Virus record (IMG/VR): IMGVR_UViG_3300009443_000031
Coordinates: 1 to 26,677 of that record
Length of the DNA stretch: 26,677 nt
Reading direction: 5' to 3' (one strand)
From: a virus
Both the position numbers and the translations under genes were made by a program. The notes beneath the pieces are model-generated. The model was not told the DNA's origin. It saw only the letters and a list, made by a program, of their open reading frames with translations, and ran no database searches. Below are positions 1 through 21,590 of this stretch, piece after piece. Position 1 is the first letter of the stretch, and every line of letters starts with the position of its first letter.

Positions 1-1451
1 CCCTGCAAAACGTATCAGCTGAAAATACAACGTTTACTATGCCTGCAGAAAATGTTGTAATACAGGCCGCTTATAAACTAAAAGAGTTTACGGTAACCAT
101 AACGAATGATGGAAATGGCTCTGCGTCATCGTTGGGTGCGATTGCGGTAAATCGAACTATCACTCTGACTAGTACTCCTTATGCGGGGTATCAAATTAAA
201 GAGTGGGAGGTTGTTTCTCCGGTAGGCCTTAATATTGTAAATAATGCGACATTCACTATGCCTGCAGAAGATGTTGAAATAAAAGCGGTTTTTGAAGCGA
301 AGCCAGCTTATTCATCAGAATTGGGAGCCCCTACTGCTCGTATAGTAGGCACTGACGTGTCCTTGAGTCAAGATGGAAAAATTAGGGCCGTAATAAAAGG
401 GAGTAAACCTATTGTTCAAAATTATAATACTACAAATAATACATGGGAAGATGAATGGGCGCCAACAACCATAACCGCGTATAAAGTTTCCTTATCTGCA
501 GATGGGACAATACTGGCTGTTGGTTATAATAACTTTGATGATAAAAAGGGTAAAGTTGTTGTCTATGAAAATGATAATGGAAATTGGCAACAAAAAGGGT
601 CGCAACTTACTGGAGAAAAAGGAGAATGGGTAGGAAATAGCTCGAGCGTTCAAAATTATCAATTTCAAGGAGATCGTTTTGGTAATAGTTTAGCGTTGAG
701 TAACGACGGACTCACTATGATTGTGGGATCTTATTCGGCTGCAGGCTCATTCTTTCATAGAAGCACAGAATACTTCTTTGATCGGGGAGGGAGAGTTCAA
801 GTCTATCAGTTTGCTAATGGAAACTGGAGCCAATTAGGTGCAGATTTTACGGGAGAGAGTCTGTATTTAGGGTATGGTGACGAGGTGAGAATAAGCGGAA
901 ATGGCTTGGTTGTAGCCTTCACTAATTATTATTGGAGCAACGATCATGATGGGAATAAATTACATGTATATGAGTGGGCCTCGAACACATGGGTAGAAAG
1001 AACAGGTGTGAGCGCTTTTAATAACTTCAATCAAATGGGATCGCCATTTGATTTCTCTATAAACAGTAATGGATCTGTGCTTTCTGCGGGGAGGTATAGT
1101 TCTTTTGGTGGCGACGGATCTGTAATAATATATAGATACGCAAATAGTTCTTACTCCAGTGAGATTATATCGGCGGAGAGTACTAATAATATGGTTTTTG
1201 GGTACAAGGTAGATTTAGATGATTCAGGTAATTATTGCGTTATATCTGAAAATTATTCGAATATTTCCGACTCGGGTAACGAGCATATTTACGTTTACCA
1301 TTATAGTGGTGGCCAGTGGAGCAATATAGGCAAAGTGTCGGGAGGAGCAATTTCATCATGGGGAAGCACAGAGACAACTAAGGTCGTACTAAGCGGAAAT
1401 AAAAATGTAGTTGCTGCAATTGTAGGAGGAAAAGTAGTCCACTTTCTTTGA
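1..1451 (+). CDS. Adhesin-like structural protein with InlB-type repeats and FG-GAP-like repeats (5' end missing)
   Basis: The reading frame (frame 3) is open to the left edge, so the N-terminus is missing; the first ATG at 39 lies inside a repeat and is not a real start. The visible part starts with one partial and one complete copy of a roughly 73-residue beta-rich repeat ending in TFTMPAE, resembling divergent InlB B-repeats found in surface proteins. From about base 330 onward the protein has several repeats of the type 'FGNSLALSNDGLTMIVGS' alternating with 'VYQFANGNWSQLG', the look of FG-GAP/integrin-alpha-like beta-propeller blades. No transmembrane segment is visible and the protein ends in a short hydrophobic strand. 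Its position just upstream of tail genes on the same strand suggests a virion-associated adhesin or fibre, but that role is inferred from context. A 46-base AT-rich gap separates it from the next gene. Confidence 0.6.
   Translation, partial: LQNVSAENTTFTMPAENVVIQAAYKLKEFTVTITNDGNGSASSLGAIAVNRTITLTSTPYAGYQIKEWEVVSPVGLNIVNNATFTMPAEDVEIKAVFEAKPAYSSELGAPTARIVGTDVSLSQDGKIRAVIKGSKPIVQNYNTTNNTWEDEWAPTTITAYKVSLSADGTILAVGYNNFDDKKGKVVVYENDNGNWQQKGSQLTGEKGEWVGNSSSVQNYQFQGDRFGNSLALSNDGLTMIVGSYSAAGSFFHRSTEYFFDRGGRVQVYQFANGNWSQLGADFTGESLYLGYGDEVRISGNGLVVAFTNYYWSNDHDGNKLHVYEWASNTWVERTGVSAFNNFNQMGSPFDFSINSNGSVLSAGRYSSFGGDGSVIIYRYANSSYSSEIISAESTNNMVFGYKVDLDDSGNYCVISENYSNISDSGNEHIYVYHYSGGQWSNIGKVSGGAISSWGSTETTKVVLSGNKNVVAAIVGGKVVHFL
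3..299 (+). repeat. Tandem InlB-like protein repeat
   Basis: Two adjacent copies of the same protein repeat are encoded here, the first cut by the window edge. The 15-base string ACTATGCCTGCAGAA occurs at both 36-50 and 255-269, a spacing of 219 bases or exactly 73 codons. The flanking residues correspond (ENTTFTMPAENVVIQAAY against NNATFTMPAEDVEIKAVF). More copies may lie upstream. Confidence 0.7.
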
Positions 1452-1497: not shown

Positions 1498-2697
1498 ATG
1501 AGCAAGCCTTTTTACAGATACGAAGATGTTCCAGTGTTGCTAGCGACCAAAGGTAGTGAGCCAATTATGGTTTTTGCTAGTTCTGCTGGACTTTCTGCGA
1601 GCCAACCGATAGAGGCTAAAAAATTCCTAGAAGACCATAATATATCTTTTGCATTACAGACTGGGGATGTGCATTTTACAGGAGCTTATGAATCTGGCTT
1701 TTTGATGGGCCCAAGAAATGGCCCAGGCGTAAAAATGCCTGAATCGGTTGAGACTATACCAAGTGGTTACAAGATAGCGTATCCAGGAGGACAATCTTTA
1801 TATTTAACCGAAGATTTATCTGCTGGAGATTACTATATTAAGGTGAGGTCTACCGGTGATACATTATTGGATTATGATAGGGATATAGAATACGGAGAAG
1901 TCGATGTTTTGAGGAATTATGCGGCATCAAATGTTGTAAGGGGTGTGTTGAATATTTCCTACTATATGAACACTGGGAATCTTCATACGTTTGCAAACTT
2001 GACTGGATTATTGGATCCAAATATTTACCCACAAATTAATGAAGAGAAAATTACAGGATCATTTGGTGATTATATTTTTGAAGACGCATACTTGAGGGAG
2101 TTGAATTTTTCGGCACAACCTTTTCAACCAATAGAGTCGAGACTAAGCATAGATATATATGGAAAAATGGAATACCGTGAGGGGTTGTCGCAGTCAATAC
2201 TTGACGATTATGGATGCTTGAAAGAGAATCAATTTAGCATACCTCACGCAGTCAATACTAAGCTTGTTGGTGCGTCCGGAATTGGCATAAATTACCCGCT
2301 TAATTTTGATTATACTATATCGTCACAAAGATCCCCAGAGGTGCCGGTCCCATTAAGCGGTAAAATTAGCGAAGATGGAGAGGTGCCAGTTCGGGTCACG
2401 AAAGATAACATAGATATCACTATAAAAATTCAAGGAGAGAAGCTTGATCCATTTCTAAAAATATCAGGACAAAGAGCTAACGTCACAGTTGAGCTTTCTG
2501 ATATTGGATTCAATAAGGAATTCACGGACAATAACGAAGGGTTGATGAATAAATTTTCTCTAGCCGGAAGTTTGATTTATCCTGATATGCCATCTCAAAA
2601 GCTAAGGGATTACGGGGTTGTAGAGGAAGATAATTTAAGCGTTTCAGAGGGTGGCTTTTTAAAGGGCACTGCAACAATAAAGCAGTCTTACAGGTAA
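1498..2697 (+). CDS. Probable tail structural protein, function not recognised
   Basis: A 399-residue protein I cannot place in a family with certainty. It has no signal peptide or membrane segment and is rich in predicted beta strands. A central stretch (about residues 175-225) containing ITGSFGDYIFEDAYL and then FSAQPFQPIESRLSIDIYG has the alternating pattern of beta-sandwich tail proteins such as tail tube or adaptor subunits. The start at 1498 is the first ATG after the gap and has no Shine-Dalgarno sequence. The stop codon overlaps the next start as TAATG, so translation is probably coupled to the giant tail protein that follows. Location at the head of the tail-tip cassette supports a virion role. 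It could instead be a minor decoration protein. Confidence 0.5.
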   Translation: MSKPFYRYEDVPVLLATKGSEPIMVFASSAGLSASQPIEAKKFLEDHNISFALQTGDVHFTGAYESGFLMGPRNGPGVKMPESVETIPSGYKIAYPGGQSLYLTEDLSAGDYYIKVRSTGDTLLDYDRDIEYGEVDVLRNYAASNVVRGVLNISYYMNTGNLHTFANLTGLLDPNIYPQINEEKITGSFGDYIFEDAYLRELNFSAQPFQPIESRLSIDIYGKMEYREGLSQSILDDYGCLKENQFSIPHAVNTKLVGASGIGINYPLNFDYTISSQRSPEVPVPLSGKISEDGEVPVRVTKDNIDITIKIQGEKLDPFLKISGQRANVTVELSDIGFNKEFTDNNEGLMNKFSLAGSLIYPDMPSQKLRDYGVVEEDNLSVSEGGFLKGTATIKQSYR

Positions 2698-5600
2698 TGG
2701 ATATACCAGCTTCATTATGGAATACTGGAAGGCGGTATAAGAAAGACGATATAGTTCAAATCGCAAACTTGGCCCTTCCTGGTGATGAATATAGGGACAA
2801 GGATGGAGATCTAGTTCAACCTATCACTACTAATGATTATCTTCAATTACAAACAGATAAAGAGTACGTAATATCTGCAGATGTCTTGAGCGAGGTAGAT
2901 GTAATAGATAGCCAAGAAGTTACCATAGGTACATATTTTAATATCAACAAAAACCTGAATTACTCGATAGGATGTATGGTTAAGAAATTAACCGAATCGT
3001 CTTCAACCATAGATGACCAGAAAACATATATTACTCAACCATCTGAGGGAGTTGTTGATTTGGATAGTTCTATAGGCGTAGGAATAGGTGTTAAATTCCT
3101 AGACAGTCTTGGAGAGAAAATAAAAGTTTCAAATCTTAGGGATAATCACAGGTTAATGGCTGGTAGCGAGCTTAATGATAGTGAGTATTATAACGTATTG
3201 TTAGATATAGAGGCAAGTTCAATACCTGATGGTGCGGTTGGCGCATATTTATTTGTATTTGTGTACGGTATGAGGTCTGGTGGTTTTATGTTCAAGAAGC
3301 CTTTTGCATCTAATTTGGGTAGGTTTTTTTATTGCATTGAGGATCATGATTCTGGTTTTGGGAAAGAGCCAAATTCAGAAGTAGGTTCAAGGTATTGGAC
3401 TCAAGATTTTGTATGGAGACCTTCTTATGGGTCAAAGTCAGATTTTGTAGCTATAAATGATGAGTTAAAGATGGGAGAGGGTAAGAATTATGTAACTAGC
3501 ATGGCCATAAATTCTTTACCAATGGAATTGACTTTGAACTTTAATAATAGAACAGATTCTGAAACTAAAGCCATAGTTCATTTTTTACAAGAAAAGTCAT
3601 TTGCTTATAATTCAATTTTTAGTTTAGATTATAAAGGTAATAGATTATTGTCAAGCGATGTAGCTTCTTTTAATTTTAAATATAGTTACCCCTATAAGGA
3701 TGATTTAAAGTATACTTGTACTGAATTTGATCATTCGATAGTTTATAGAAATAAAAACAATATCAAGGCTAAATTCGTATGCAATACTGAGAGCACTTTG
3801 GCTAGCTTCGAGAGTCACGCTGGATACAACAAAAGAGTTGACGCTTTGATACCTATATTTATAGACGAAGTAACTCACTTTAAAAAAGGAGAGCAAATAA
3901 GCTTAAATACATTCACTCTCGAGGGGGACGATGGAGCAAAGAAAATAGAGCCAAGTAATATATTAAGAGTAAAAAGATACGACGAACCGGGAGAACTTAC
4001 AAAAGGTTTAATAATATGTAAAGAGCCAGAAAAGTTCGAGGAAGGGGATTGTGTTTTTGTAAAAGTAAAAGATCCAGAAAACTCTATATACAATGTAGGG
4101 AAAACAAAAATATATAAAAAAATATCTCAAACTGAATTTGTTTTTCACCCGTTATTGGAAGAGGGGTCATATGAAGACGTGGTAAATTTAAGGGCTACAT
4201 CTTCGGCTGGAGAAAATACTTCAGCGCAATGGTTCGATGAGGATGTCAGTAACCAATTGAAGATAAGAGAAGAAGATATTGTTTTTGATAATGTATCAAT
4301 AGTCAGAATGGCTGTGTGCCCTGAGGATTGTGCAGACAGTAAGGTTTTGATGCCAGAGGGAGTGTCTATTATACCTGCAACTAGCGAAGATCCGGCAACC
4401 GGAGAAAGCAGAAAGAGGCAAGTATATTTAAAAAACTACAGAAGGCTACAAATAGACTCAGAGATCACTGCGGAGACTCAAACTGTTAAGTTTACTCCTA
4501 TGGAGAATTTTACACTGGAAGCAAAGGATGACTTCTGGCTGCTTATTTCTGCTGTTCAAGGCAGGAGCAGCTTATACATAAAAGATCCAGACGAAATTCC
4601 AAAATACCCTTGGTTAGAAGTTAGAACCTTTGATCACAAGCCAAGTTTAAATTTCAACATAAATCACACTCCAGAAAATATACAAACAAGTTTCCTTAAA
4701 TACTACAATAAGAAATATAAGAAAGAATTAAATTCTAATCTATCTACATTTAATGTAGTTTTTGATAAAAGGAGCGATCAGGAGGCTGCCGAAATATTGC
4801 AGTTCCTTGAGAGTCATCTTGGGCACAAGAAATTTAGGTTTCAAATGCCTAGGCCATATTTAAAAGATACAAGCGCGACGACTTCTCCGAGTAGACCTTT
4901 CATTTCAACTTTTTATTGTCCTAGCTGGGGGCACGATATAGTTTACAAGAATAATCATAGTATTACGGCAACCTTCATAGAGTCCACAACCTCAATAGAA
5001 GAAGATTTACGTAATGTTTTTGGCATAGGCAGGGAAGAGCAGAAGCCTTGCTATGGAGCTGAGCTTTTTGACCCTGTTACTAAATTTGAATTATGCACCT
5101 TTTCTTCGATATTGCAGGCCACAAATGGAATTGGATTCCAGGTAGTAGAAGGTGAGAACGAGCAATTGATCGGAAAGCCTAAAGCTGTTGATTTAGTTTT
5201 TATAGTTGATACGACGGGCAGTATGACTAACCAGAGTATAGAGACGAATGGAGTCACTAAAACAAAGTATCAGGTATGTATAGATATACTTTTGAAAATG
5301 ATAACAGCTCACGATAGCTATATCATGCCTGGAACCGAATCATATAATGGTGAATTTAACACTCCAGCATTAAGCTTTGGTTCGAATAGTGGTGATGACA
5401 CTATACCTCCATGGCCAGCAGATAATGAAGTCTTGAATAGCTTGTTACCTAAACTTTACGATCCGCTAAAGGAATTGCGAGATTCTCTTGAAAATGAGGG
5501 TTATAATTTAGAAAACCTAGATAGATTTAAAATAAAAATAGACCAAAAAAGAGTAAATCTTGGTTTTATACTGATGGCAGATCCTAGGCAGGTGATACAG

Positions 5601-7484
5601 GACGTATCAGATTACCCTAATTCATTCGACAAGGTGCAGTCTTATAAAAGTATAAACGTAAAAGATCCACAAAGCGTACTAAAAGAAGATTCGCCTAGAG
5701 CAGTTAGTCAGGCTTTGGCTCAATTTTATAATAGTCCACGAGCTGAACATGTGACAGATAGAATAGTTATAATGCTAAGCGATGGAGTTTTTACTAGCGA
5801 TGATGCGGCTATGCCAGGAACTAATTACGATCAGTTTTATAGTCAATACACTCTTGACATGTGCGCTCAATTAAGAAAAGGTGGAGATTTGGCGGTTAGA
5901 AGACCATCTGACGAGGTGCTCAAGAAGTATGGATACGGAAGTCAGACGCCTTTTAATAAGCTAGAGAATTATAAAACAAAAGAAAAAGATGGGGGGGTAT
6001 CTCAATACAATAACCCAGACCTTGAAAAAGAAAACCCTGTCTGGTACAATGAAGAAATGCCGACGGTATTTATGTTTGCCAGAGTGGGTATACCTGGCCA
6101 ATTATCAACTTACGCTCCAAACTATGTTTATGATTATGATAAACCGGCGCCGTATTTAGAGCCACCAAGCAAGACTCCTCAATTCTTTTTTCCAATAACG
6201 CAGGCGGGCGACTTGAATGGCGAAGTAACTAGAATGATGGACCTAATAAAAATTGTAGAAATGCTCACCAATGATAATGGTTATCAAAACGTGTTCTCAA
6301 TAGTGTTATATAATTGCGGGCCTCATGATGTGCAACTTAAGAATACACTAGTAAACATAAAAGGCCAAGCTGGCCCGCTAAAATATACAACCGAAATCTT
6401 AAAGGAAGGAATACCTAAGGGTGGTAACGTTCGTGACTTAAGTTATACCCAACCATACCAAAGTAAAGCATTAATAAATCAAGGTTATGGTGGTCAATAT
6501 TATGGAGATCTAAATAATCAGGATTTATTTTCAGACGAATCAAGAGATTCAAATATATTGTGGTCTTCATTTAATACGAAGTACGAAGTATCTAGGGAAG
6601 GGTTTATTGAAAATATAAATGGAGGTTGGGCTGAGAATTCAACACTAAGTGAGGGAGTAAAGAATGTGGGTGTCGCTTTCAAGGGAATGCCTATAAGGGT
6701 ATTTAAGGCGGATTCAGGTTTGGAAATAACGGACTATAACATAGGCAATGTTCACGCTGGCAACCAATACAGAGGCGATTATTCACACTTGCCGGTGATT
6801 AAACCTGGGGAGAAACTTGATTTGTTTTTTGGAATAAAAACTAACAAGCTGAGCGATTTTTCTGAGAACGTGCAATTATTAATAAATTCAGACGATGGAA
6901 CGATGAGGCAGATGGACTGTTATGCTAATTATGAGTTCGACATACTCATTCCATCAAGCAAAGAGATTGTAGGTGATACCAAAACCGAAGACAAGGGTCC
7001 AAAGAATTGCCAGAGTGTATGGATGAATTCAAATCTTGTTATAGATCATCCAGAATATGGAAAAGTTTCTTTTGATAGCAGCCCTAAGTTGCCCATCGCC
7101 CCAACATACAACCCTTGGGCTTTAAGGAATTTCGCAGACAAGCCGCCGACATCAGGGGGTAATTCTTTCAAGATGTGCAACATAGCTTCAGCTCAAACAT
7201 ATACATTTTCTCAACCAATAAGAAATCCTCTTTTGGCTGTTTATAGTTTGGGGAACCCTGGTTTAAGCGTGACCATAAAAACAAGTACCAAAGTTATCGA
7301 TTATTCGGGAGGAGCAAAATCAGCTGACCATTCTACTATAGTTGTTGATACAGACTTTAGCTTCAAGGGGCCAGAGGCTTTTGGAGTCCTTCAGTTTCCA
7401 GGAGAACATACAAGTATAACTTTAACGCCAAACACCGCTGAGTGTTACTATAGTCTCGTATGGGGGTTGCAATATTGCCCATGA
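2697..7484 (+). CDS. Giant tail protein: two gpM-like domains plus von Willebrand A domain
   Basis: A 1595-residue protein with a mosaic architecture. About residues 237-364 and 645-765 each show the pattern of the lambda minor tail protein M family: a beta-strand block, 'NRTDSETKAIVHFLQ' or 'KRSDQEAAEILQFLE', then an aromatic 'SIVYRNKNNIKAKF' or 'DIVYKNNHSITATF' ending. About residues 825-1210 form a von Willebrand A domain with the metal-site motif DTTGS (838-842), a serine in DSPRAVSQAL at the expected middle position, and LSDG with D1029. The last 100 residues are a beta-sandwich-like segment. In lambda, gpM joins the tail tip before gpL; here the order relative to gpL is kept but two extra genes intervene. 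The start shares its A with the preceding stop (TAATG), which supports it. The VWA domain probably mediates metal-dependent protein or surface contacts; that is inference. Confidence 0.7.
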   Translation: MDIPASLWNTGRRYKKDDIVQIANLALPGDEYRDKDGDLVQPITTNDYLQLQTDKEYVISADVLSEVDVIDSQEVTIGTYFNINKNLNYSIGCMVKKLTESSSTIDDQKTYITQPSEGVVDLDSSIGVGIGVKFLDSLGEKIKVSNLRDNHRLMAGSELNDSEYYNVLLDIEASSIPDGAVGAYLFVFVYGMRSGGFMFKKPFASNLGRFFYCIEDHDSGFGKEPNSEVGSRYWTQDFVWRPSYGSKSDFVAINDELKMGEGKNYVTSMAINSLPMELTLNFNNRTDSETKAIVHFLQEKSFAYNSIFSLDYKGNRLLSSDVASFNFKYSYPYKDDLKYTCTEFDHSIVYRNKNNIKAKFVCNTESTLASFESHAGYNKRVDALIPIFIDEVTHFKKGEQISLNTFTLEGDDGAKKIEPSNILRVKRYDEPGELTKGLIICKEPEKFEEGDCVFVKVKDPENSIYNVGKTKIYKKISQTEFVFHPLLEEGSYEDVVNLRATSSAGENTSAQWFDEDVSNQLKIREEDIVFDNVSIVRMAVCPEDCADSKVLMPEGVSIIPATSEDPATGESRKRQVYLKNYRRLQIDSEITAETQTVKFTPMENFTLEAKDDFWLLISAVQGRSSLYIKDPDEIPKYPWLEVRTFDHKPSLNFNINHTPENIQTSFLKYYNKKYKKELNSNLSTFNVVFDKRSDQEAAEILQFLESHLGHKKFRFQMPRPYLKDTSATTSPSRPFISTFYCPSWGHDIVYKNNHSITATFIESTTSIEEDLRNVFGIGREEQKPCYGAELFDPVTKFELCTFSSILQATNGIGFQVVEGENEQLIGKPKAVDLVFIVDTTGSMTNQSIETNGVTKTKYQVCIDILLKMITAHDSYIMPGTESYNGEFNTPALSFGSNSGDDTIPPWPADNEVLNSLLPKLYDPLKELRDSLENEGYNLENLDRFKIKIDQKRVNLGFILMADPRQVIQDVSDYPNSFDKVQSYKSINVKDPQSVLKEDSPRAVSQALAQFYNSPRAEHVTDRIVIMLSDGVFTSDDAAMPGTNYDQFYSQYTLDMCAQLRKGGDLAVRRPSDEVLKKYGYGSQTPFNKLENYKTKEKDGGVSQYNNPDLEKENPVWYNEEMPTVFMFARVGIPGQLSTYAPNYVYDYDKPAPYLEPPSKTPQFFFPITQAGDLNGEVTRMMDLIKIVEMLTNDNGYQNVFSIVLYNCGPHDVQLKNTLVNIKGQAGPLKYTTEILKEGIPKGGNVRDLSYTQPYQSKALINQGYGGQYYGDLNNQDLFSDESRDSNILWSSFNTKYEVSREGFIENINGGWAENSTLSEGVKNVGVAFKGMPIRVFKADSGLEITDYNIGNVHAGNQYRGDYSHLPVIKPGEKLDLFFGIKTNKLSDFSENVQLLINSDDGTMRQMDCYANYEFDILIPSSKEIVGDTKTEDKGPKNCQSVWMNSNLVIDHPEYGKVSFDSSPKLPIAPTYNPWALRNFADKPPTSGGNSFKMCNIASAQTYTFSQPIRNPLLAVYSLGNPGLSVTIKTSTKVIDYSGGAKSADHSTIVVDTDFSFKGPEAFGVLQFPGEHTSITLTPNTAECYYSLVWGLQYCP

Positions 7485-8860
7485 GTTTTATAACTGAACA
7501 ATCTGGGGTATGTCTCTCTCCTTCCGGTGGAACTGTCTATGCTGCATGCAATTGGTTTATCGATGAATATGGGCAGCGGTATTTGAATACGGAGGAGAGC
7601 AAGAGAATACTTCCAGAAGGGAATTGTTTACCGATTACTAATTTTGATTGTGACTCTAGTAGGAAAACGGTTGATAGTGGTAAGTTTGTATCAATTGTAA
7701 ATACGTGCAGCTTGCCAATAACTATTACTGGTTTTAGAAATTCAGACCCCGAAAGGTTTTCTATATTGAGGTACCCTGAATATGCCGGATTTTCTGAATA
7801 CACAACGGGGAACACTGAAGAATTACCTTTTACTGTTGAGCCCTTTCAGAGAAAAGTGGTTAATGCATTTTTTCATCCATTAATATCTGAACTTACAAGT
7901 GGGACTCCTGGAAAGTTAGAGAATAGAAATGGAGATAAATTTAGAGCAAAAATAGATATTCTTCCTGGATTCGAAGTCTTGAACTGTCAGAAGGAAAACT
8001 TTGTTTCTGTGCTTTGGTGGGATGGATCATGTGGCGGAGGTGGAGATAACTTAATACTAATGGATCAACCAATCGAGAGTTCTGGCCAATGGTTTGAGCC
8101 ATCAGGGTTAGATTCATATATAGTAAGGACTGGAATATATTACCCAGAACAAGAAGCCGCTCAATATTTTGATCATACAGGACAAGACGTAACATTAACG
8201 GAAGACTATGAGCTTCCATCAAACTATTGTTCCGCATCGTTTAAGCTTGAAGCTGAGTTTTTGTGCGAAGCCGTTGATAGGAAATTTTTAAACAATGATG
8301 ACAACTTCATAGAGCCAGACTTGTCGATAATCAAAAAAATACAAAACCAATACTCATTAAGTAAGAAAAAAACGATAGAGCTAAATATAGCAAACAATAC
8401 CTCTGTGCAGAATATTTTTACAGGACTTAGGGATTGCTCTGTGGCTTACGCTTCAATGCTGAACAACATGAATCCAATTTGGCACGAAGCTTATGGAGAT
8501 GTTGGGATATCTGGATCTCTTGGCGCTTTTCATTCTTTGGTTGATGGGCTAATCAGAGCGGGGCAAGACGGTGATATTAATAATTTAATTATGTCAACTT
8601 TACCTCCAACGAATATAAATTATGGTGACGCCGAGATTCAAGTATCTTACACGAGTAATAATACAGGACAAGTGGAACTAGATGGATACCTATGGACAGG
8701 CATGGTCATAGAGAATAAGTCGGTGAAAAATGCTGGAGACTTGACAAATCAAGCGGTGTTTTTTAATGCCCAGGTAATTTCGGGACCTCAAGAAGATGTC
8801 AGAATGTTTATAGTTGATAGCGGCGATTTTAATCTATACCCAATGAAAGAAAAAATATGA
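7481..8860 (+). CDS. Unrecognised tail-region protein with ASH-like beta domain
   Basis: The open frame allows a start at 7460, but the ATG at 7481 overlaps the previous stop as ATGA, the arrangement used throughout this window, so 7481 is preferred (459 residues). An N-terminal segment around 'VNTCSLPITITGFRNSD' followed by 'PFTVEPFQRKVVNAFFHP' resembles the short immunoglobulin-like ASH/HYDIN fold. Several cysteines occur in the first half, including CDSSRK, NTC, and CEAVD further on; disulphides or metal binding are possible. The C-terminal half shows beta-rich patterns and no catalytic motif I recognise. Its place between the gpM-like and gpL-like genes and its translational coupling on both sides argue for a distal-tail component. 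There is no equivalent gene in the lambda tail-tip order. Confidence 0.5.
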   Translation: MSFITEQSGVCLSPSGGTVYAACNWFIDEYGQRYLNTEESKRILPEGNCLPITNFDCDSSRKTVDSGKFVSIVNTCSLPITITGFRNSDPERFSILRYPEYAGFSEYTTGNTEELPFTVEPFQRKVVNAFFHPLISELTSGTPGKLENRNGDKFRAKIDILPGFEVLNCQKENFVSVLWWDGSCGGGGDNLILMDQPIESSGQWFEPSGLDSYIVRTGIYYPEQEAAQYFDHTGQDVTLTEDYELPSNYCSASFKLEAEFLCEAVDRKFLNNDDNFIEPDLSIIKKIQNQYSLSKKKTIELNIANNTSVQNIFTGLRDCSVAYASMLNNMNPIWHEAYGDVGISGSLGAFHSLVDGLIRAGQDGDINNLIMSTLPPTNINYGDAEIQVSYTSNNTGQVELDGYLWTGMVIENKSVKNAGDLTNQAVFFNAQVISGPQEDVRMFIVDSGDFNLYPMKEKI

Positions 8861-10002
8861 GTATATATAATATGTCATCGGGAGATAGTGACCCAAATAA
8901 TGATTTTTTGAGAATGCATATAGCTATGGATGCAGATTCAAGTTCAACTATCACAATTTTCAATAGCGGCAATGCAGGGGTCGTTAAATATAGTACAAAT
9001 TCTGATTACGCATGGAAGGTCGAGAGAATTAAATACATATCAGAAGACACAAGAGCATTAAAAGCTTCAGAGAATCAAAGGGTTGGGTACCCTGAATCTA
9101 TATCCTGGATCCCTGGTTCGTTGATATCGCCGCTATCGAGCTCGGAGGAAGTGAAGGTTGGTGGCCTGAAATCATTTACAAGTAAGGATGACTTAAATGG
9201 AGCGCAATATCTAAAATCAGGACACCTAGTACTAGAAGAACACTATGAAGAACAATGGAGCCCGCAGGGTATAATTCAAGTATCAAATGTTTATTCGGAG
9301 TACGGAAACATGCCGTTTGTTGACATAGAGAATAAAGATATAGACTCCACAGGTGTTATAAATTTATATTCATCCTCTCTAAAGGGTTGCATTTTTAGCA
9401 TCGACATAAAGAGGAATTTCATAAGTGGAGAGGCTAATGAGGCGGGCAGTATACTTCTATCAGATCAGATTGATACAAAATCAAGTAGCTCAGTAAGAAA
9501 AAACGATACAATCAGCGAGTGGAATAGTATATTTGAAATAAATAAAAACTGCAACGCTGACTCTATATTTAAAAACGGAAAAAATAGAGACGAAGTGTTT
9601 GCAGAAGAATTAAAGTCATACCTAGATGACACTTGGCACAACAAGCTAAAGAGAAACTTGTGGGGGGATTATATAGATAATGAAAATATAGAATTAAGCT
9701 CAAGAGATCCGGAAACGCTAAAGAATCATATATTTTATTGTTTTTATTATTTTGGAGCTTCTGATGATATAAATATACTTTCTAATGCCAGTTTTTATGC
9801 TAATGAGGGGTTGAGTTGGTATATCGGTCTTGGTGGTAAAAGTTTATTCTCAGACAACATAAGGTCAATGAAAACTGAGTTGAGTTACCTCCCAGTCATA
9901 TCCAAAACTAAAAAAGTAACAAAAGTTTATGGCTTGCCACCTAGAACAACTTATTCATATAATTTACAAAACAATATTAATATTGCTGATTTTATTGATT
10001 GA
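8857..10002 (+). CDS. Unrecognised tail-region protein
   Basis: A 381-residue protein with no family I recognise. It starts with an ATGA overlap on the preceding gene, so the two are probably translated in a coupled manner. The first half is serine-rich and predicted to be beta-rich; residues about 240-300 contain a charged, more helical segment (VFAEELKSYLDDTWHNKLKRNLW). The C-terminus is polar and asparagine-rich. There is no signal peptide or membrane helix. Like its upstream neighbour it occupies an extra position between gpM-like and gpL-like genes. A role as a tail-tip structural or assembly protein is inferred from position only. Confidence 0.45.
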   Translation: MSIYNMSSGDSDPNNDFLRMHIAMDADSSSTITIFNSGNAGVVKYSTNSDYAWKVERIKYISEDTRALKASENQRVGYPESISWIPGSLISPLSSSEEVKVGGLKSFTSKDDLNGAQYLKSGHLVLEEHYEEQWSPQGIIQVSNVYSEYGNMPFVDIENKDIDSTGVINLYSSSLKGCIFSIDIKRNFISGEANEAGSILLSDQIDTKSSSSVRKNDTISEWNSIFEINKNCNADSIFKNGKNRDEVFAEELKSYLDDTWHNKLKRNLWGDYIDNENIELSSRDPETLKNHIFYCFYYFGASDDINILSNASFYANEGLSWYIGLGGKSLFSDNIRSMKTELSYLPVISKTKKVTKVYGLPPRTTYSYNLQNNINIADFID

Positions 10003-10023: not shown

Positions 10024-11073
10024 ATGAGTAATACAGAAAAGAATATTAAAACTTTATTTGAATTGGATCCTTCTGCTATTATATGTTTGTATAGAATAAA
10101 CTTAAGAGAGAAGGGTCAGTATTTATTTCATGCTGGAGAAAATGGATATAAAAATAAACTAGTATTCAATAGCCAAGAGTACGATTTTTTTCCTATAAAG
10201 GTTGATGGATTTGAAACTCCGGGAGACGGAAGGCTTCCTAGACCAAAGATGACGTTTACCAATCACCAAGGAGTAATTTCTTTGCGGCTTAATTATTTTG
10301 ACGATTTTATTAATTATAAGGTTACTAGGGTAAAGACGTTTGTTAAGTATTTAGATGCAGTTAATTTTCCCCATGGTGTTAATCCTCACGCCGAGCCTGA
10401 TCCTGATGCGGCTTTTGGAGAGGATGTTTTCTTTGTTAATCAGAAAACAAAAGAAGATGATAATATAGTGGAATTTGAACTTGTATCCCTGCTCGAGTTA
10501 GAGAATGCAAATGTTCCAGCTCGAACAATTTATTCCAACAACTGCCCGTGGAACTACAGGGGCGCAATTGGCTGCGGTTATAACGGAAAACCTATATCGG
10601 TCGCGAAGAATAAGAGGTTTGTGCCGAGCGGATATCATCCTGTAAAAATAGGCGATAAGTTTTTACCAGGTGGAGCGGTTGGAGCTGATGTTTATTTTGA
10701 AGACGAGTTTCAAGGTGAGGAGTTTGCTAAAGCGGAAGGTGACGAAAGTTATCAAGATTGGCTTATAACAGAAACATATCAAAAGGGTGATGTTGTCAAA
10801 GTGGTTCCATACGATAACGACTCAGACCTTAATCCAATAGATATATATGTATGTTTGAATAATGAAGTTAGATCTAACCCTATACATGACTCAGAAAACT
10901 GGGCCCTAGATGATTGCGATAGAACATTGTGCGGTTGTAGGTTGAGATTCTCAGATTTAGCTACAGGGGCCGGAGGCGGATCAAGATCCTCTAATGAGGG
11001 GCTGCACGTAGAGTCAAAAGATGGACTTCCGTTTGGAGGTTTCCCTGGAGTTGACCCTTATGAATTTAAGTAA
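10024..11073 (+). CDS. Lambda gpL-like distal tail protein with Fe-S-type cysteines
   Basis: A 349-residue homologue of lambda minor tail protein L, which is part of the tail tip. Family features seen here are the 'PWNYRG..GCGYNG' segment, a downstream 'DCDRTLCGCRLRF', and the terminal 'LPFGGFPG'. The cysteines in NNCPW, GCGYNG and DCDRTLCGC correspond to those reported to hold an iron-sulphur cluster in gpL relatives. Between the second and third cysteines there is an added segment with a 'TYQKGDVVKV...IYVCLNN...ENWALDD' pattern, similar to carbohydrate-binding module 5/12 sequences. The gene follows a 21-base AT-only gap and is followed without any gap by the gpK-like gene (stop TAA directly before ATG). 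gpL links gpM to the gpJ hub in lambda, and the same place is expected here. Confidence 0.9.
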   Translation: MSNTEKNIKTLFELDPSAIICLYRINLREKGQYLFHAGENGYKNKLVFNSQEYDFFPIKVDGFETPGDGRLPRPKMTFTNHQGVISLRLNYFDDFINYKVTRVKTFVKYLDAVNFPHGVNPHAEPDPDAAFGEDVFFVNQKTKEDDNIVEFELVSLLELENANVPARTIYSNNCPWNYRGAIGCGYNGKPISVAKNKRFVPSGYHPVKIGDKFLPGGAVGADVYFEDEFQGEEFAKAEGDESYQDWLITETYQKGDVVKVVPYDNDSDLNPIDIYVCLNNEVRSNPIHDSENWALDDCDRTLCGCRLRFSDLATGAGGGSRSSNEGLHVESKDGLPFGGFPGVDPYEFK

Positions 11074-11806: not shown

Positions 11807-14800
11807 ATGAAAAAGGTATTTTTACACGGAGAGCTCGGCAAGGAGTTTGGGAGGGAGTGGAATTTAGATGTTAAATCTGCTTCTGAGGCTTTGTCTGCCC
11901 TGTTTGCCAATAACAGTTCAATAGAAGTTTACCTAAACAAAAAGCAGCAGGATGACGTATTTTACGGGGTAAGAAGTGGGAGATCTAAGTCATTTCTTAC
12001 GAGTGAAGAAATGAGCGCAAGGACTAATGAAGATTTCCACCTGTTCCCAATACCTCTTGGCTCTGGGGGGGCGGTGGTTGGATTATTGGTGACCGCAGCA
12101 ACCACTGCCGCTAGCATGTACGTTTCTAAGAAAATGGCTGAAGCTATGCAGAGGGAGGATAAAACTGTAAAAGCTCAGACTCAATCATTTTTATTTAACG
12201 GTAGTGAGAATAGATACGAGCAGGGGGCAACCGTTCCTTTAGGTTATGGAAGAATGAAGGTTGGAAGTAATACTATATCTGCTTGTAATGTCAATTACGA
12301 TTACGACTCAGACAAGGGAGATATATTTAATTTCACAAGCGGACTTTATAGTTTAATACCAACGTACAGCAAATACTACAATGACGAATACGGACCACTT
12401 GGTTCTTCTTTTCATGTTAATCAATTCGATGGTAGTAGCAAATTTAAAACTGCAGATCCTGCTTATTTATTTTTGAAAACAGCTCCATCATTGAATACAT
12501 TCGGTTCAAACGATGGATCATATGGTCAGTATGAAGATGCGGCAGCACAACAAGATAGGTATGTTACTCAAGATAGTAAAAACGGTAATGCTATTGGTGG
12601 GTACATGTATTATGAGTATAATTATTTTAAAGGTTTAAATAAGTCACTACTTGGAAATGCTCAAGCTAATGGTAATTGGTTTCAGGATTCGAATATTTTA
12701 GACAATACATTGGCGGTTTCGTCGGCGGCTGCAATAAAGAGTTCGTTAGTATGCCTTCAGTCAAGCCCAATAGCTGGAAATGAAGAAAAAGTTTTTTACC
12801 CAATAATGTTTGCCGATGGCGAGCTTACTAGTGCAAGAAATCCTATAGATAGGAACAATCAGGGTTTTGCTCCAATACAGGTTGGAGAAAGGTGGAAGGG
12901 GGCAGATAAGAATAATGGAGTAGGTTGGTTTAAGTTAGAATCCGCTTCAGTTTACAAGGCCGTGGACTTAGTGTGTGAGGGACCTATTGATGGTTTTTCA
13001 GACAACAATGGGGATACATTAAAGTTTCGCAAAGAACTAGAGAGAAACGACGATCCAGCTTTAATGAGAAACAGTATGGATGACTACCTGCAAGGGGTAT
13101 ACTTGAATGACGACCAAGCTAAGGAAGTCAATCATGCGACAAATTTAGATTCTTACAATATAAACGAATTCGATATAGACATAGGTATGAATAAGGATGG
13201 TCTAATTGGGTCAAACGATCAATCTTTACTGGAACCTCAGTATTTGTTTACAGCAAATACTAAGGACATAAACGCTCCGCTGTATGGGCCAAGATCAATT
13301 AATCAAGGAGCTATAATTACAGAGCAAAGCGATATAGGTCCATTCAAGCAAAACAAAACCTACAAGTTAGGGGAATTGGTATCTTATCAGGATGACGGTC
13401 AATCTTATAATTATAAATTAAGCAATAGTTTGTCGAATAAATTTTCAAAAAATGAGGACTATAACTATGCGGCAGATGATGTCAAGATAGTTTACGAAGA
13501 GAATGGAGATAGTAAGACTTTTTATGCTGCCACGCAATTAATAAACGAATATAATGCATTCGACGGAGGTTATGTGGACATTGAAAACGATAATTATTAT
13601 CTACCTGGGGATAAGATAAAGTCAGAAAGTTTCTTGGGGGGTGTTGAATACTACGAAATGGGCCCTGATTCTGAGAAATTTTTAGGCGTATTTGATTACA
13701 AAAAAACTTACGCTGGCCTCAATGGATATGTAATAATGAAATCTCAGGGCGACGTAAATTCTACATCTCCCATATATAAAATAACTGGAGATTACAACCC
13801 CGCCGAGAATGACTCGATAGGGGAATTTGCTAAATTATTAATGCACAAATATAGAGACGAAAACAATCAAGAAAAAATTGTTTCTAACGATCCAATATAT
13901 ATATTAAAAAACACAGAAGATGAAGATTTGGCGGGAAATAGAATTATAGGGGATGAGCAGGATATTACTCCATCCACATCTAATTTGTGGCAGTCTATAG
14001 TTATAACATCCCCTCAGGATGAAATTAAGAATGGACCTATAGGTCCGGGCAGCCAAGGCGATAAATATGATGGAGATTTAAATTTGTTTAAATTTGCAAA
14101 TAACGATTCAGTTGAATTAGTAAAGTCTCAAGAGGAGGAGTATTATGTAGCCCACTCTATAATTAATCCATTAGTTGAGGAGGTTTATGTTTCGCTACAG
14201 ATTGACGAATTAGCTTACATATATGAAGGTGACGAGCTCAACGTGACATACAAACCTGGAGCATTAATGGGTGCCCTTTTTGGATTGATGATAGTTGCCG
14301 AAGATGCTACTGCTGTGGCTGGTGGTATTTTGGCAGCTATAGGTTTACCTACTGAGCCCGGAGCTAAAGTAATGGGAGGCAAGGAAATGGCAAAAGCATT
14401 AGCTAAGATAGCGGCGGTAACGACGTTGGGAGCTGTATTAGGAAACAATACAAAATTTAAAATAGGAACAAAAGTAGAAAACTCAGGAGAGACCTGGCCT
14501 AATAGGGCAAGATTTAGAATTAAATATGGCAACCAAGGAGAATCCCAATATTCAACAGATGTATACATTTATGGGGTAGCTACGTCGCCATATAGGAAAG
14601 ATGTAAAAATTTATCTACCACCAAATCCCTCCGCAAAAGACCGATCAATAAAAGTATACAAACTAAACAGGGAAAGGAACCCAGTAAAAGAAGGAGAGCA
14701 ATCTGCAAGATACAAAGAGAAAATGCTACTAGCTGGAATAACGGAAATTTCACCAGTACAGTTGAGTTATCCTAATTCAGTTGTTATAGGAACAAGGATT

Positions 14801-17104
14801 AACGCAAAAGATGTTCCATCAATACCTAAAAGAAATTACAATTTAAAATTAAAAAAACTAGCGATACCCTCAAACTATAATCCGGATACAAGAATATACG
14901 ATGGAAGTTGGAATGGGCTATTTAGGGGCCAATCCTCAAGCAGTGATCAAGTTCCTGATGCAGCTAAAGAATGGACCGACAATCCGGCTTGGTGTTTGTA
15001 TGATTTAATATCAAGCAAGAGATACGGGGTTGGTAAGTTTGGGGTAAGGCCTGAGAATATAGACAGGTGGACCCTTTATAGAATTGCTAAATATTGCGAC
15101 GAGTTTGTTCCGACTGGTTATAGCTCAAAATACAAGCAGAGAGCGTTTAAGCTATATGGAGATAGAACTATAAAAATAGACCCTACAGAAAACTTAGATA
15201 TTGCAAAATTCAATAAAGAGTTTAACCATCCGAATAAGAGGTTGGCTATATATTATGATAATAACAAGTATGAATCAATAAAGATAAATGGGACTTCAAA
15301 TTCTGGAAACGAAGTAAGGCTAGAAATTAATCCATCTTTAGATTTTGGTAAATGCGCAGTAGAAATAGATTACCCTCTTGTGGAGCCTAGATATACTATT
15401 AATGCTTTTTTAATGAATTCCGATAATGCGTTTAAATTAATAAATGAATTTGCGGCAATTTTTAGAGCATTTGCATATTGGTCTGGTGGGGCAATTAATT
15501 TCTTTCAAGACGAAAAGAAGGATTCAGTGATGCTTTTCGCTAACAACAACATATCTAAGGATGGATTCTCTTATTCAAATACTCCAAAAACCAGTAGGAC
15601 AAATTCGTGCAAGATAAAATATGTCGATAGGTTTAATAATTTTAAATCAAAGATAGAATATTCCGAGGAAAGGGCGTCGGTGCAGAAAAATGGAATAATA
15701 GAGCAGACAATAGATGGTTTTGGGATAACTTCTCAAGGGCAAGCCAAGAGAGCTGCTGATTTTGTCGTCAAAAGCGCCAACATGGAGTCAGAGATATTAT
15801 CTTTTACGACTAGTTCAATCGGGTCTTATTTGAAACCGGGGGACGTGATAGACGTACTAGATAATAAGAGGACTATAGGAAGGTTTGCAGGCAAGATAAC
15901 GGACATATCAATATACGGAGACGGTAAGTCTGCTGAGATATCAATAGATTACCCAATCAATGCAATTATTGAAAAAGACGAAAAGGATACATGGAAAAAT
16001 ATAACATTATATAATATATCTGGAAATGAAACTATAAAATCTCTGGATGAGAAAATTAAGCCAAGCGACCAAGAGATATCAAACATGAGATCCTCTCAGA
16101 TAAAAACATTTACAGCCGCAAGCCTTTACGGGGATGATCAGAAGTTATTATTAGTAAGTAATCCATATAGTTTTATTTCAGGAGAGTATACTTGGAGGGA
16201 GGCAAAAGAAGACGCACTAGATAGGGGTGGAAGGTTGGCCACAATTACCAATGATACTGATCAGTTATTAATGCAATCAACCATTGAGTCTGGGCAAACT
16301 GGATGGATAGGTGGGTATTTCATAGATTTACCTCCGCCTCCTAGATTCATATGGGACCAGCCTGAAGCTTGCAATACTGATGAAATATCTTTCTATAGTT
16401 GGGCTGAAGGTTTTCCAAAAATAGGAGACTCTCTTCAAGACCATGAAGATCAAACCATAGTGACAGACTGTGATGAATTTGAAATAATGACAGACCCGCC
16501 AGATGGTTTTGGTAATTTTATAGCTGCAAGTGGGTCTGAAGATAATTCAATTAATGGAGATTGGGTAACGCTATCAGGAGTTAGTAAAATAGGATACATA
16601 TTAGAGAGAGAGAGTGATGATTCTCTTTTCTCTTTAAAAGATGTCAAGGGTTCGACATTTATGATGGAAGACTCGGTAAACCTTGCTAAACCTAAGCAAT
16701 TTAAAGTTGTAAACATAACAGAATCATCGAATGGAATTTTTGAAGTTAGGGGGCTAGAATACAATAAAGAAAAATTTGACAACATAGAAAAAAATATGTC
16801 GATAAAACATCCAGAATCTCCTGTTATTTTTACAGAAAGCGTCCTAGATGCACCCTCAGAAATAACCATTGAGATATTGAGCGAGGATGTATCCAGGAAA
16901 ATACCATACGGACTTAAGCTTTCGTGGAACACCGTGTTGTCTGCAGCAAGTTACAAGATTCAGTTTTTTAATGGAAATATATTGATATCTACATTTGAAA
17001 TACCAAATGATAAGGGGGTTGAGGTAAATTCTTATAGTTATAGAAATGAAGCAATTAAGGAAGATGGTAATTATTACGGGAGAGTATACTCTGTAGTTTC
17101 ATAA
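11807..17104 (+). CDS. Fused lambda gpI-gpJ tail-tip host-specificity protein with inserted C-type-lectin-like domain
   Basis: A 1765-residue fusion. Residues 1-80 match the ubiquitin-like N-terminus of lambda gpI; about 84-110 are a glycine/alanine-rich hydrophobic segment; the gpI signature 'VPLGYGRMKVGSNTISA' follows at about 145-160. From there gpJ features appear in order: 'VDLVCEGPIDG' (about 388), 'NPAWCLYDLI..RYGVG' (about 1060), 'INAFLMNSDNAFKLINEFAA' (about 1196), and a C-terminal fibronectin III-like domain (about 1680-1765). Residues about 1450-1605 form a C-type-lectin-like domain (YTWREAKEDALDRGGRLATI, then GWIGGY, WAEGFP, GDWVTL) placed inside the hub portion. A long hydrophobic segment at about 818-880 is also unusual. 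gpJ is the central fibre that contacts the receptor and begins DNA entry. The next start overlaps the stop as TAATG. Confidence 0.93.
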   Translation: MKKVFLHGELGKEFGREWNLDVKSASEALSALFANNSSIEVYLNKKQQDDVFYGVRSGRSKSFLTSEEMSARTNEDFHLFPIPLGSGGAVVGLLVTAATTAASMYVSKKMAEAMQREDKTVKAQTQSFLFNGSENRYEQGATVPLGYGRMKVGSNTISACNVNYDYDSDKGDIFNFTSGLYSLIPTYSKYYNDEYGPLGSSFHVNQFDGSSKFKTADPAYLFLKTAPSLNTFGSNDGSYGQYEDAAAQQDRYVTQDSKNGNAIGGYMYYEYNYFKGLNKSLLGNAQANGNWFQDSNILDNTLAVSSAAAIKSSLVCLQSSPIAGNEEKVFYPIMFADGELTSARNPIDRNNQGFAPIQVGERWKGADKNNGVGWFKLESASVYKAVDLVCEGPIDGFSDNNGDTLKFRKELERNDDPALMRNSMDDYLQGVYLNDDQAKEVNHATNLDSYNINEFDIDIGMNKDGLIGSNDQSLLEPQYLFTANTKDINAPLYGPRSINQGAIITEQSDIGPFKQNKTYKLGELVSYQDDGQSYNYKLSNSLSNKFSKNEDYNYAADDVKIVYEENGDSKTFYAATQLINEYNAFDGGYVDIENDNYYLPGDKIKSESFLGGVEYYEMGPDSEKFLGVFDYKKTYAGLNGYVIMKSQGDVNSTSPIYKITGDYNPAENDSIGEFAKLLMHKYRDENNQEKIVSNDPIYILKNTEDEDLAGNRIIGDEQDITPSTSNLWQSIVITSPQDEIKNGPIGPGSQGDKYDGDLNLFKFANNDSVELVKSQEEEYYVAHSIINPLVEEVYVSLQIDELAYIYEGDELNVTYKPGALMGALFGLMIVAEDATAVAGGILAAIGLPTEPGAKVMGGKEMAKALAKIAAVTTLGAVLGNNTKFKIGTKVENSGETWPNRARFRIKYGNQGESQYSTDVYIYGVATSPYRKDVKIYLPPNPSAKDRSIKVYKLNRERNPVKEGEQSARYKEKMLLAGITEISPVQLSYPNSVVIGTRINAKDVPSIPKRNYNLKLKKLAIPSNYNPDTRIYDGSWNGLFRGQSSSSDQVPDAAKEWTDNPAWCLYDLISSKRYGVGKFGVRPENIDRWTLYRIAKYCDEFVPTGYSSKYKQRAFKLYGDRTIKIDPTENLDIAKFNKEFNHPNKRLAIYYDNNKYESIKINGTSNSGNEVRLEINPSLDFGKCAVEIDYPLVEPRYTINAFLMNSDNAFKLINEFAAIFRAFAYWSGGAINFFQDEKKDSVMLFANNNISKDGFSYSNTPKTSRTNSCKIKYVDRFNNFKSKIEYSEERASVQKNGIIEQTIDGFGITSQGQAKRAADFVVKSANMESEILSFTTSSIGSYLKPGDVIDVLDNKRTIGRFAGKITDISIYGDGKSAEISIDYPINAIIEKDEKDTWKNITLYNISGNETIKSLDEKIKPSDQEISNMRSSQIKTFTAASLYGDDQKLLLVSNPYSFISGEYTWREAKEDALDRGGRLATITNDTDQLLMQSTIESGQTGWIGGYFIDLPPPPRFIWDQPEACNTDEISFYSWAEGFPKIGDSLQDHEDQTIVTDCDEFEIMTDPPDGFGNFIAASGSEDNSINGDWVTLSGVSKIGYILERESDDSLFSLKDVKGSTFMMEDSVNLAKPKQFKVVNITESSNGIFEVRGLEYNKEKFDNIEKNMSIKHPESPVIFTESVLDAPSEITIEILSEDVSRKIPYGLKLSWNTVLSAASYKIQFFNGNILISTFEIPNDKGVEVNSYSYRNEAIKEDGNYYGRVYSVVS

Positions 17105-19651: not shown

Positions 19652-20434
19652 TACTGATATATCGTCCCAGTCTTTCCATGATTCTATATTTTTGTTTTGA
19701 TACACTCCTTCTTTTTTTGCTTGCCAGCATTTCTTAATAAAAGGTTTAAAGTCTTCAAATGAATCAGTAAATAAAACGCTTTTAGCTCTATTCCTTAAGG
19801 TCGTTACTGGGCTAAATGGGTCGCTTTTTTTAGACGAATCTTGATGCGCAGGTGCGTTTGGGTTTGATTTATCAATCTCGTCATCTCCAACTATATGGAC
19901 ATTAAGGAAGTTCCTAACACATCTAACAAACGACCTATTGCAAGCTATGGTCTCTAGAAATTTGGTAGCAAAACTACTTGTGTTTCTTGTGCTTGCATTG
20001 GCCATATCTTGGAATGAAACTGGATTATTTCCTGTTTCATAATTAGGTATAAAGATCGTGCTACAGGTGACTGCAACGTGATCTTCTTCGCATTTATCGA
20101 TAGAATAAGATATATTTGAAAAACCTCTTAGCCTGGCAAGCTCCTTGATTCCGCTAAGCTTAATTAATAACTGATTATCTTTTAGCCCTTCTATGGATCT
20201 TGGCATGTCTTTATTTCGGGCCTGAAACCAAAGCTTATTTGGGAATAAATGTTCTTCTTTTATCATTGCCCTCCAGTTAACTGATCCGTCCTCATTGAAG
20301 ACATATTGAATGTTTTTTAGTAAGCCGTTTTCGTCTCTGTTGAATAAAGATGGACCGATAGAGTTATCTATTTTAGAGTCTGAAATGGTTGAGGAGTTTT
20401 CGGTTGTTGTTTCACTTTTTTTTGATTTTGTCAT
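19616..20434 (-). CDS. Candidate single-strand annealing (recombination) protein
   Basis: A 272-residue protein. After a polar, serine/threonine-rich N-terminal tail (about 1-28) comes a segment with 'NIQYVFNEDGSVNWR', then a probable core around residues 85-190. The stretch ETIACNRSFVRCVRNFL (161-177) followed by IVGDDEI (181-187) resembles the 'RAxxRAxRxxLG' helix and following loop of Rad52/ERF/Red-beta-like phage annealing proteins. Presence of an SSB gene in the same block is consistent with such a role. I am not certain of the family. The start lies inside the last codons of the preceding gene, a 23-base overlap. TATAAT occurs one base before the ATG but has no matching -35. It is the last gene of the - strand block and ends in the hairpin. 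Confidence 0.45.
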   Translation of the reverse strand: MTKSKKSETTTENSSTISDSKIDNSIGPSLFNRDENGLLKNIQYVFNEDGSVNWRAMIKEEHLFPNKLWFQARNKDMPRSIEGLKDNQLLIKLSGIKELARLRGFSNISYSIDKCEEDHVAVTCSTIFIPNYETGNNPVSFQDMANASTRNTSSFATKFLETIACNRSFVRCVRNFLNVHIVGDDEIDKSNPNAPAHQDSSKKSDPFSPVTTLRNRAKSVLFTDSFEDFKPFIKKCWQAKKEGVYQNKNIESWKDWDDISVKDAKILISLIS

Positions 20435-21590
20435 GATTATAAATATTTAGGTGATTTATTTCTTCCCAGAAATCATCATTATCAATAATTTTTTGGTCTT
20501 CAATTCCTTTTTCGACTCCATCTTTCCATGAAGCTTTACTTGAGTATTCTTTACCATTCGATATTAATAACTTGTTGCTGTGATAGAAAGTATTATCACA
20601 CAATTCAGAACAAAAGTCAAGGTCTTTGTTTTTCTTTTTTATATATTCTTCTATGGTTCTATCAAAAAAATTAAATCTTAATTCAGATATATTCTCGCGC
20701 TCCCTGCAAACTAATGAGTATTTAATGTTCATGGAATCTAGACTACAAAGGTAATCTTCGTCGAAATTTAAATCTTCCATAAATAATGTAATTCCTGCAA
20801 TATTAGATCTATTCCTGTAGATTAAATTTAAGTCAATCTTCCTGGAGGTCATTAGGTTAATCTTGAAATTAAACCATTCGTGAATAAATGAGTCATCGTC
20901 AGTATAGTCGCACCGAAGATTAACTATAGATCTTGGCGAAAAACCTAATGGGCAATGATGGTCGGGCACAACCTCTAGTATACTATTATTATAGTACTGA
21001 CCTATATTTAAGGTTTTATAACCATCTAGGTTGTTGTTAGCATCTATAAAGTTTAAAGCTTTGAAGAATATTTCCTCAGGATTTATTTTATCAATTGATT
21101 TATTTTTATCCGTATTTGAGTAGCTAGGTTTTGAACCTTCCAAATCAGGGGATAAGCAAAAGTGCTTAGACTCTCTATTCCATACTGGGCCAGACTGCTC
21201 TGGAAGCATATCTGAAAATATTGATATAGATGGAATATCTAAACATGAAGACAAGTGCAAGGAGAAGCTGTCAACACAAATATGCAGAGAAGAGCCTTTC
21301 AATATATAAACGATATTCTTAAAAGATGTAGACCCTCTAAGATCATGATCTACACCCTTACATTGGTAATCTTCTTTTGAGCCAACTTGTATTACATCAT
21401 AACCTTTGGCGTTTTTTTTAATCATGGAAACCACGGTTTCCCAGTGAGAATAATTTCTTGATTGTATGCCTTTGGACGTTTGTAGGGTTATGTATTTATC
21501 GGAAGTAATTGGATAAAAATGATCAGAAATTTGTGGGCGCCCTATTTTGACTCCTAGGCATTTTGCGTACTCTTCAATTAAATGACTCAT
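20412..21590 (-). CDS. GT9-type C-terminal glycosyltransferase half plus unknown domain
   Basis: A 392-residue protein. Residues about 30-130 match the C-terminal half of a GT9 (ADP-heptose:LPS heptosyltransferase type) fold: 'ITLQTSKGIQSRNYSHWETV', 'VIQVGSKED', and 'LHICVDSFSLHLSSCLDIPS', where GT9 proteins have the Ds..H.A..lg.P loop. The N-terminal Rossmann half is absent here but occurs at the end of the preceding gene, which overlaps this start as ATGA. Residues about 190-392 form a second, unrecognised domain with 'YNNSILEVVPDHHCPLG' and 'NLRCDY'. A complete GT9 fold may therefore form from two chains. Likely substrates would be sugar nucleotides; whether lipopolysaccharide, virion protein or DNA is modified cannot be told. 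Confidence 0.6.
   Translation of the reverse strand: MSHLIEEYAKCLGVKIGRPQISDHFYPITSDKYITLQTSKGIQSRNYSHWETVVSMIKKNAKGYDVIQVGSKEDYQCKGVDHDLRGSTSFKNIVYILKGSSLHICVDSFSLHLSSCLDIPSISIFSDMLPEQSGPVWNRESKHFCLSPDLEGSKPSYSNTDKNKSIDKINPEEIFFKALNFIDANNNLDGYKTLNIGQYYNNSILEVVPDHHCPLGFSPRSIVNLRCDYTDDDSFIHEWFNFKINLMTSRKIDLNLIYRNRSNIAGITLFMEDLNFDEDYLCSLDSMNIKYSLVCRERENISELRFNFFDRTIEEYIKKKNKDLDFCSELCDNTFYHSNKLLISNGKEYSSKASWKDGVEKGIEDQKIIDNDDFWEEINHLNIYNHDKIKKK

Follow-up and report, generated by a model that had tools for sequence, protein, structure and literature searches.

A von Willebrand A fold in a probable exchangeable adhesion arm of a gpM-type tail-tip protein with duplicated ring domains

What a von Willebrand A (VWA) domain would do at the tail tip of a lambda-like siphophage, and whether it still holds a metal ion there, is the question raised by a locus in a virus record of 26,677 bases (the window, that is, the whole stretch of DNA analysed). 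A single open reading frame on the plus strand (2697..7484) encodes a tail-tip protein of 1595 residues, organised from the N-terminus as an N-region, a gpM-like domain (gpMa), a middle region, a second gpM-like domain (gpMb), the VWA domain and two further domains, C1 and C2. The length of the protein and the positions of its motifs DTTGS (residues 838–842) and LSDG, with D1029, are as the original prediction had given them. All coordinates within this gene refer to the plus strand of the window.

The genes that follow are arranged as in the lambda tail tip. The 1595-residue protein is succeeded by two genes without assignment and then by genes for gpL, a gpK-like and a gpJ-like protein, which is the order M, L, K, J, interrupted after M by the two extra genes. 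The first extra gene (7460..8860, plus strand; 466-residue product) is directly next to the tail-tip gene and the second (8857..10002, plus strand; 381-residue product) follows it; comparison of contigs places both within a swapped cassette. The first gene past this cassette encodes a gpL-like tail-tip hub (10024..11073, plus strand; Pfam Phage_tail_L, E 5e-44). The gpK-like gene has JAB and NlpC/P60 domains, and the gpJ-like central tip protein (11807..17104, plus strand) matches NCBIfam lambda_TipJ with E 2.8e-59, a score below the cut-off of that model, and Pfam Phage-tail_3 with E 1.8e-19. Upstream of the tail-tip genes, window positions 39-1451 encode a 470-residue protein with InlB B-repeat-like and FG-GAP-like matches, and a protein matching glycosyltransferase family 9 is encoded near the tail module on the minus strand (20412-21590).

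The gpM-type character of the protein is carried by gpMb (residues 641–790; 4617..5066), which matches Pfam Phage_min_tail at residues 644–761 with 45.9 bits against a cut-off of 39 and also the minor tail protein family phrog_14. Above the cut-off, Pfam detects this one gpM domain alone. gpMa (residues 231–400; 3387..3896) has a Phage_min_tail match below the cut-off (E 9.9e-4) and is recognised from its profile-profile match with gpMb (98.4%, E 4.9e-15); self-similarity within the protein reveals it likewise. In lambda, six gpM copies form the ring, where they adopt two conformers arranged with three-fold symmetry (PMC10721106). By analogy, the protein, placed at the gpM position, would be the tail-tip ring subunit of a lambda-like siphophage, and three copies with two tandem gpM domains each would probably form a six-part ring.

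Pattern searches of IMG/VR yielded 35 related contigs, and 27 sequences were aligned. The borders between VWA, C1 and C2 were set by the way in which relatives split, fuse and exchange these parts. The VWA-fold domain covers residues ~829–1205 (5181..6311). An AlphaFold2 model of residues 791–1425, built with the 27 aligned sequences, has a mean pLDDT of 85.4 and a pTM of 0.86 and follows the VWA plan: a core strand at 831–838 ends at D838, a helix at 999–1012 begins just past the loop-2 position, and a strand at 1021–1028 stops before D1029. Strands and helices alternate in the Rossmann-like manner of VWA domains. The best Foldseek matches in the PDB are complement factor B, Toxoplasma MIC2 and Plasmodium TRAP (one of them Mg-loaded), with integrin beta lower. 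TM-scores normalised by the target reach 0.57–0.63 for single MIC2 and TRAP domains; normalisation by the 635-residue model gives low values, since C1 and the inserts are part of that model. Factor B and the apicomplexan TRAP/MIC2 proteins, which use the domain for metal-dependent adhesion or protein contact, are eukaryotic and differ from the window protein in having no large inserts of its kind.

On the window protein, Pfam VWA reaches 14.0 bits against a cut-off of 23.8 and VWA_2 12.9 against 27, the Pfam VWA match on the window contig is below threshold, and PDB sequences searched with a profile yielded one weak irrelevant match and no VWA protein. Two inserts split the sequence model, and the domain is assigned to the VWA fold and not to the Pfam VWA family. 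The low score of the window would agree with an unrelated Rossmann-like or novel domain whose motifs match by chance, a reading that is barely credible and is largely refuted by the predicted structure and its fold matches, by the Pfam VWA matches in 13 of the 27 relatives (E up to 1; best 2.4e-4) and by L069, a distant relative with 29% identity over the aligned module and a textbook metal site (MIDAS) of DISGS, GGTS and LTDG. The domain at residues ~829–1205 thus has a VWA fold, and the proposal that such a domain is built into a gpM-type tail-tip protein is correct. L069 (L069:1155-5594) is the most distant relative, and no close kin of it was found in the viral collection. A tblastn search of 50,697 phage records with the whole 1595-residue protein and with L069 gave no match.

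The metal site of the window is not the complete one that had been predicted. Loop 1, DTTGS (5208..5222), is found where the first core strand ends and conforms to the DxSxS / DxTxS pattern. Loop 3, S1028-D1029-G1030 (5778..5786), lies within LSDG (residues 1027–1030) at the end of core strand 1021–1028, and D1029 is invariant in 27 of 27 aligned relatives. At the loop-2 position, right before the helix that starts at residue 999, E997-D998-S999 (5685..5693) stands in place of the canonical threonine, in the segment EDSPRAVSQAL (about residues 997–1007). The model and the alignment with GGTS of L069 put D998 in the region of the L069 threonine, with S999 adjacent; this position is Y in L015, L016 and L022. 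The VWA domains of TRAP/MIC2 and factor B have the canonical MIDAS threonine. The serine of DSPRAVSQAL, originally proposed as a metal-site residue, is not confirmed as such: three relatives with DTTGS have F or Y in its place, and the invariant loop-2 residue in the DTTGS group is E997. In the 11 sequences that share DTTGS (42–96% identity), positions 838–843 and 1027–1030 are all invariant while their codons differ synonymously, against a background of 96 invariant columns out of 378 (25%), and selection therefore acts on these loops. The description of the site as apparently intact is thus right for loops 1 and 3 and too strong for loop 2, since the threonine is absent there, and for the same reason the window is not filed as a canonical MIDAS. 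Use of a divalent metal in the window's lineage is plausible from this pattern of conservation.

The predicted large insert between the metal motifs is present, and a second one follows. The spacing from D838 to residue 998 is 160 residues in the window, against 123 in L069; in the integrin alpha-M I domain it is 69 residues. Insert 1 (approximately residues 871–950; 5307..5546) lies between the first helix and the next core strand and has a conserved PPW. Insert 2, identified by alignment, comprises ~90 residues after D1029 (approximately 1031–1122; 5787..6062) and has conserved RRPxD and NPD..W motifs. Strictly invariant residues outside the metal site are R1068, D1072, P1107, W1116 and NCGP.

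Metal binding is not required by the family, because the MIDAS is degraded in 9 of the 27 aligned sequences: loop 1 reads KKGAS, EAGEG, DGSAA, DGDPI or others, and eight of these nine also have SDF for SDG. On the VWA tree this degradation needs three state changes, and eight of the nine degraded sequences fall in one supported clade (99/96), with long branches that blur the details. About a third of the family appears, from these sequences, to have lost the metal site and to retain only the VWA scaffold. Such losses suit the main rival reading, that the VWA fold is a structural platform, a rigid support between the gpM ring and exchangeable heads with the metal site as a relic, all the more as every locus complete enough to be checked retains the fold and as the strictly invariant residues include those outside the metal site. 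We regard this reading as possible and somewhat unlikely. DTTGS and LSDG are invariant in the window's group despite synonymous change, and the distant relative L069 keeps the full MIDAS.

The way in which relatives exchange the C-terminal part of the gene also bears on the choice between a platform and an adhesion arm. Among the 35 related contigs, most loci encode the VWA domain in one protein with the gpM pair; in L027, L030, L032 and L033 it is separate, at the start of the next gene. No full-length locus without a VWA domain was found among those complete enough to check. The DNA of L014 and L008 is 99.5% identical as far as the conserved CTFSSQL motif that precedes the VWA domain, at about window codon 804. 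Beyond it, the VWA domain, C1, C2 and the two next genes are replaced, the VWA domains having 38% protein identity, and 99.2% identity resumes ~65 bases before the end of the second downstream gene, with both junctions in frame. A search for another independent contig bearing the L014 junction found none, and this clean cassette swap is known from one contig, so an assembly chimera at L014 is possible. Within the gene, a sharp difference confined to C2 separates the window from L010 and L017 from L021; these two pairs, in which C2 alone is swapped, are what a platform bearing interchangeable heads would also give. Against a platform stand the exchange of the VWA domain in L014/L008 and the pair L015 and L016, where the VWA domain (70% identity) diverges faster than its flanks (95 and 91%). 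Exchange of this sort is typical of receptor-binding parts. An adhesion role of the VWA arm is supported because the cassette is swapped between related phages, and the VWA domain is probably part of the host grip because an adhesin-type fold sits in the swapped part of the gene. The metal-dependent adhesion step originally proposed is plausible for the window's clade, where loops 1 and 3 are conserved. Its loop 2, however, lacks the threonine, and the site has been lost in about a third of the family. Against the arm reading, the VWA domain is, in the full-length loci found, always present and thus more constant than a typical receptor-binding decoration.

Two further domains follow the VWA fold. 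C1 (residues 1206–1425; 6312..6971) is a conserved beta-rich domain that begins with NCGP. C2 (residues 1426–1595; 6972..7481) is the swappable C-terminal head. It has no Pfam match; its AlphaFold2 model is all beta with a pLDDT of 83.8 and resembles a carbohydrate-binding module, the Foldseek matches being weak (none at E<=0.001) with carbohydrate-binding domains foremost. The model suggests that C2 is likely a sugar-binding head. In the contig of L022, a 371-residue protein (L022:13683-14798) combines a piece like the 466-residue product with a C2-type head, a head that has moved between tail genes.

The metal site may instead serve an assembly contact. The VWA domain of factor B binds C3b, and on that model the MIDAS would bind an acidic residue or the C-terminus of a partner tail-tip protein, such as the product of one of the co-exchanged genes. 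Factor B is the top structural match, the two next genes are exchanged along with the VWA domain in L014/L008, and in the four loci with a separate VWA protein that protein must dock. This assembly contact is nevertheless distinctly unlikely, the co-exchange being seen in one clean case and the sites being degraded elsewhere.

Far less probable still is a VWA domain that works with an AAA+ chaperone of the MoxR type in assembling the tail. VWA-MoxR pairs are common in bacteria. The Gordonia phage group of Gmala1 was reported with separate vWA and AAA genes (PMC4563357). No MoxR-type AAA+ gene, and hence no such pair, was found in ten related contigs, which may be incomplete. The AAA matches examined were ClpB-like and RuvB-like and distant from the tail genes, and a MoxR partner was rejected for these contigs. 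The contig of L021 encodes an 804-residue ClpB-like ATPase (L085:3532-5946).

The best reading, by analogy, is that the window protein is an adhesion arm on the tail-tip ring comparable to the evolved Dits of siphophages of Gram-positive bacteria, distal-tail ring proteins with extra host-binding domains, including carbohydrate-binding modules (PMC7291167, PMC10688798). Carbohydrate-binding inserts in evolved Dits help the phage to adsorb (PMC10688798). In the window family, contig comparison shows extra modules that are present and exchanged. The differences are that the ring domain is here gpM-type and duplicated and that the extra part includes a VWA domain in all full-length loci found; none is described for evolved Dits in PMC7291167 or PMC10688798.

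On balance we think it somewhat probable that the protein is a tail-tip ring subunit of a lambda-like siphophage with an exchangeable adhesion arm, whose VWA domain in the window's lineage probably holds a metal and grips the host or a partner tip protein. The VWA domain would follow gpMb, project outward from the ring and bear C1 and the exchangeable, sugar-binding-like head C2, and arm and two next genes would form a host-recognition cassette that phages exchange. A divalent metal would, in the window's lineage, probably be bound through D838, T840, S842, D1029 and the acidic loop-2 residue and would grip an acidic group of the host surface or of a partner tip protein; in other lineages the domain may serve as a scaffold only.

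VWA domains had been held to lie outside the lambda tail-tip plan, which is right for lambda itself, but the window protein is not unique, as cultured Rhodobacter and Stenotrophomonas phages have VWA domains in tail-tip proteins. In Rhodobacter phage RcTitan (KR935213), the gene that immediately follows the tape measure encodes gp22, which combines a DUF2460-like distal-tail region with a VWA domain that has a full MIDAS (DVSGS, GGTTP, ITDA); nine phage records carry this VWA type. Its VWA domain lies between two tail-protein parts and, unlike that of the window, has the canonical loop-2 threonine; such proteins are annotated as hypothetical or tail assembly proteins, and tblastn detected no homology to the window protein. 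The RcTitan gene (L070:17177-18904) is labelled hypothetical in GenBank. Stenotrophomonas phage vB_SmaS_QH3 (PP932004) has VWA domains in its hub (residues 26–214) and in its J-like protein (VWA_2 at 156–274), both over the Pfam cut-off, and thus in the hub and central tip protein and not in a gpM-type ring protein. The two genes (L082:2687-5545 and 5968-7422) encode different tail-tip proteins, each with a VWA domain. A literature search, mostly of freely readable papers, found no description of VWA domains in siphophage tails and no paper on those of RcTitan or QH3. Outside phages, PilY1 of the type IV pilus tip, with a patchy MIDAS (PMC13190605), and VWA-bearing tail fibres of extracellular contractile injection systems (eBAP4; PMC12923769) likewise have the domain at or near the tip of a filament or tube; these belong to a bacterial pilus or a contractile injection system and have no gpM ring domain. 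What is new here is that a ring protein with two gpM domains bears a VWA fold, which most likely belongs to an exchangeable adhesion arm; the protein is kin to the known decorated distal tail proteins. A wider generalisation, offered tentatively and short of probable, is that siphophages attach to their hosts through a metal-dependent VWA arm of integrin type on the tail-tip ring, recruited more than once (in this family, in RcTitan-like and in QH3-like phages), exchanged as a host-recognition cassette and deprived of its metal in some lineages.

Carbohydrate-binding domains, fibres and beta-rich receptor-binding heads make up most of the adhesion modules described so far at siphophage tail tips. 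A VWA arm, if true, would add a metal-switchable grip to them and link phage attachment to a fold that integrins, pilus tips and malaria parasites also use. The pattern of swaps marks the likely site at which host recognition is determined in this uncultivated and probably marine phage family. L008 and L014 are a natural pair on nearly the same backbone, the VWA domain being metal-competent in L008 and degraded in L014 (KKGAS in loop 1), and would make the role of the metal directly testable. A search of genome contigs found one partial locus (L034) in a metagenome-assembled genome of Flavobacteriaceae, a weak pointer to the host.
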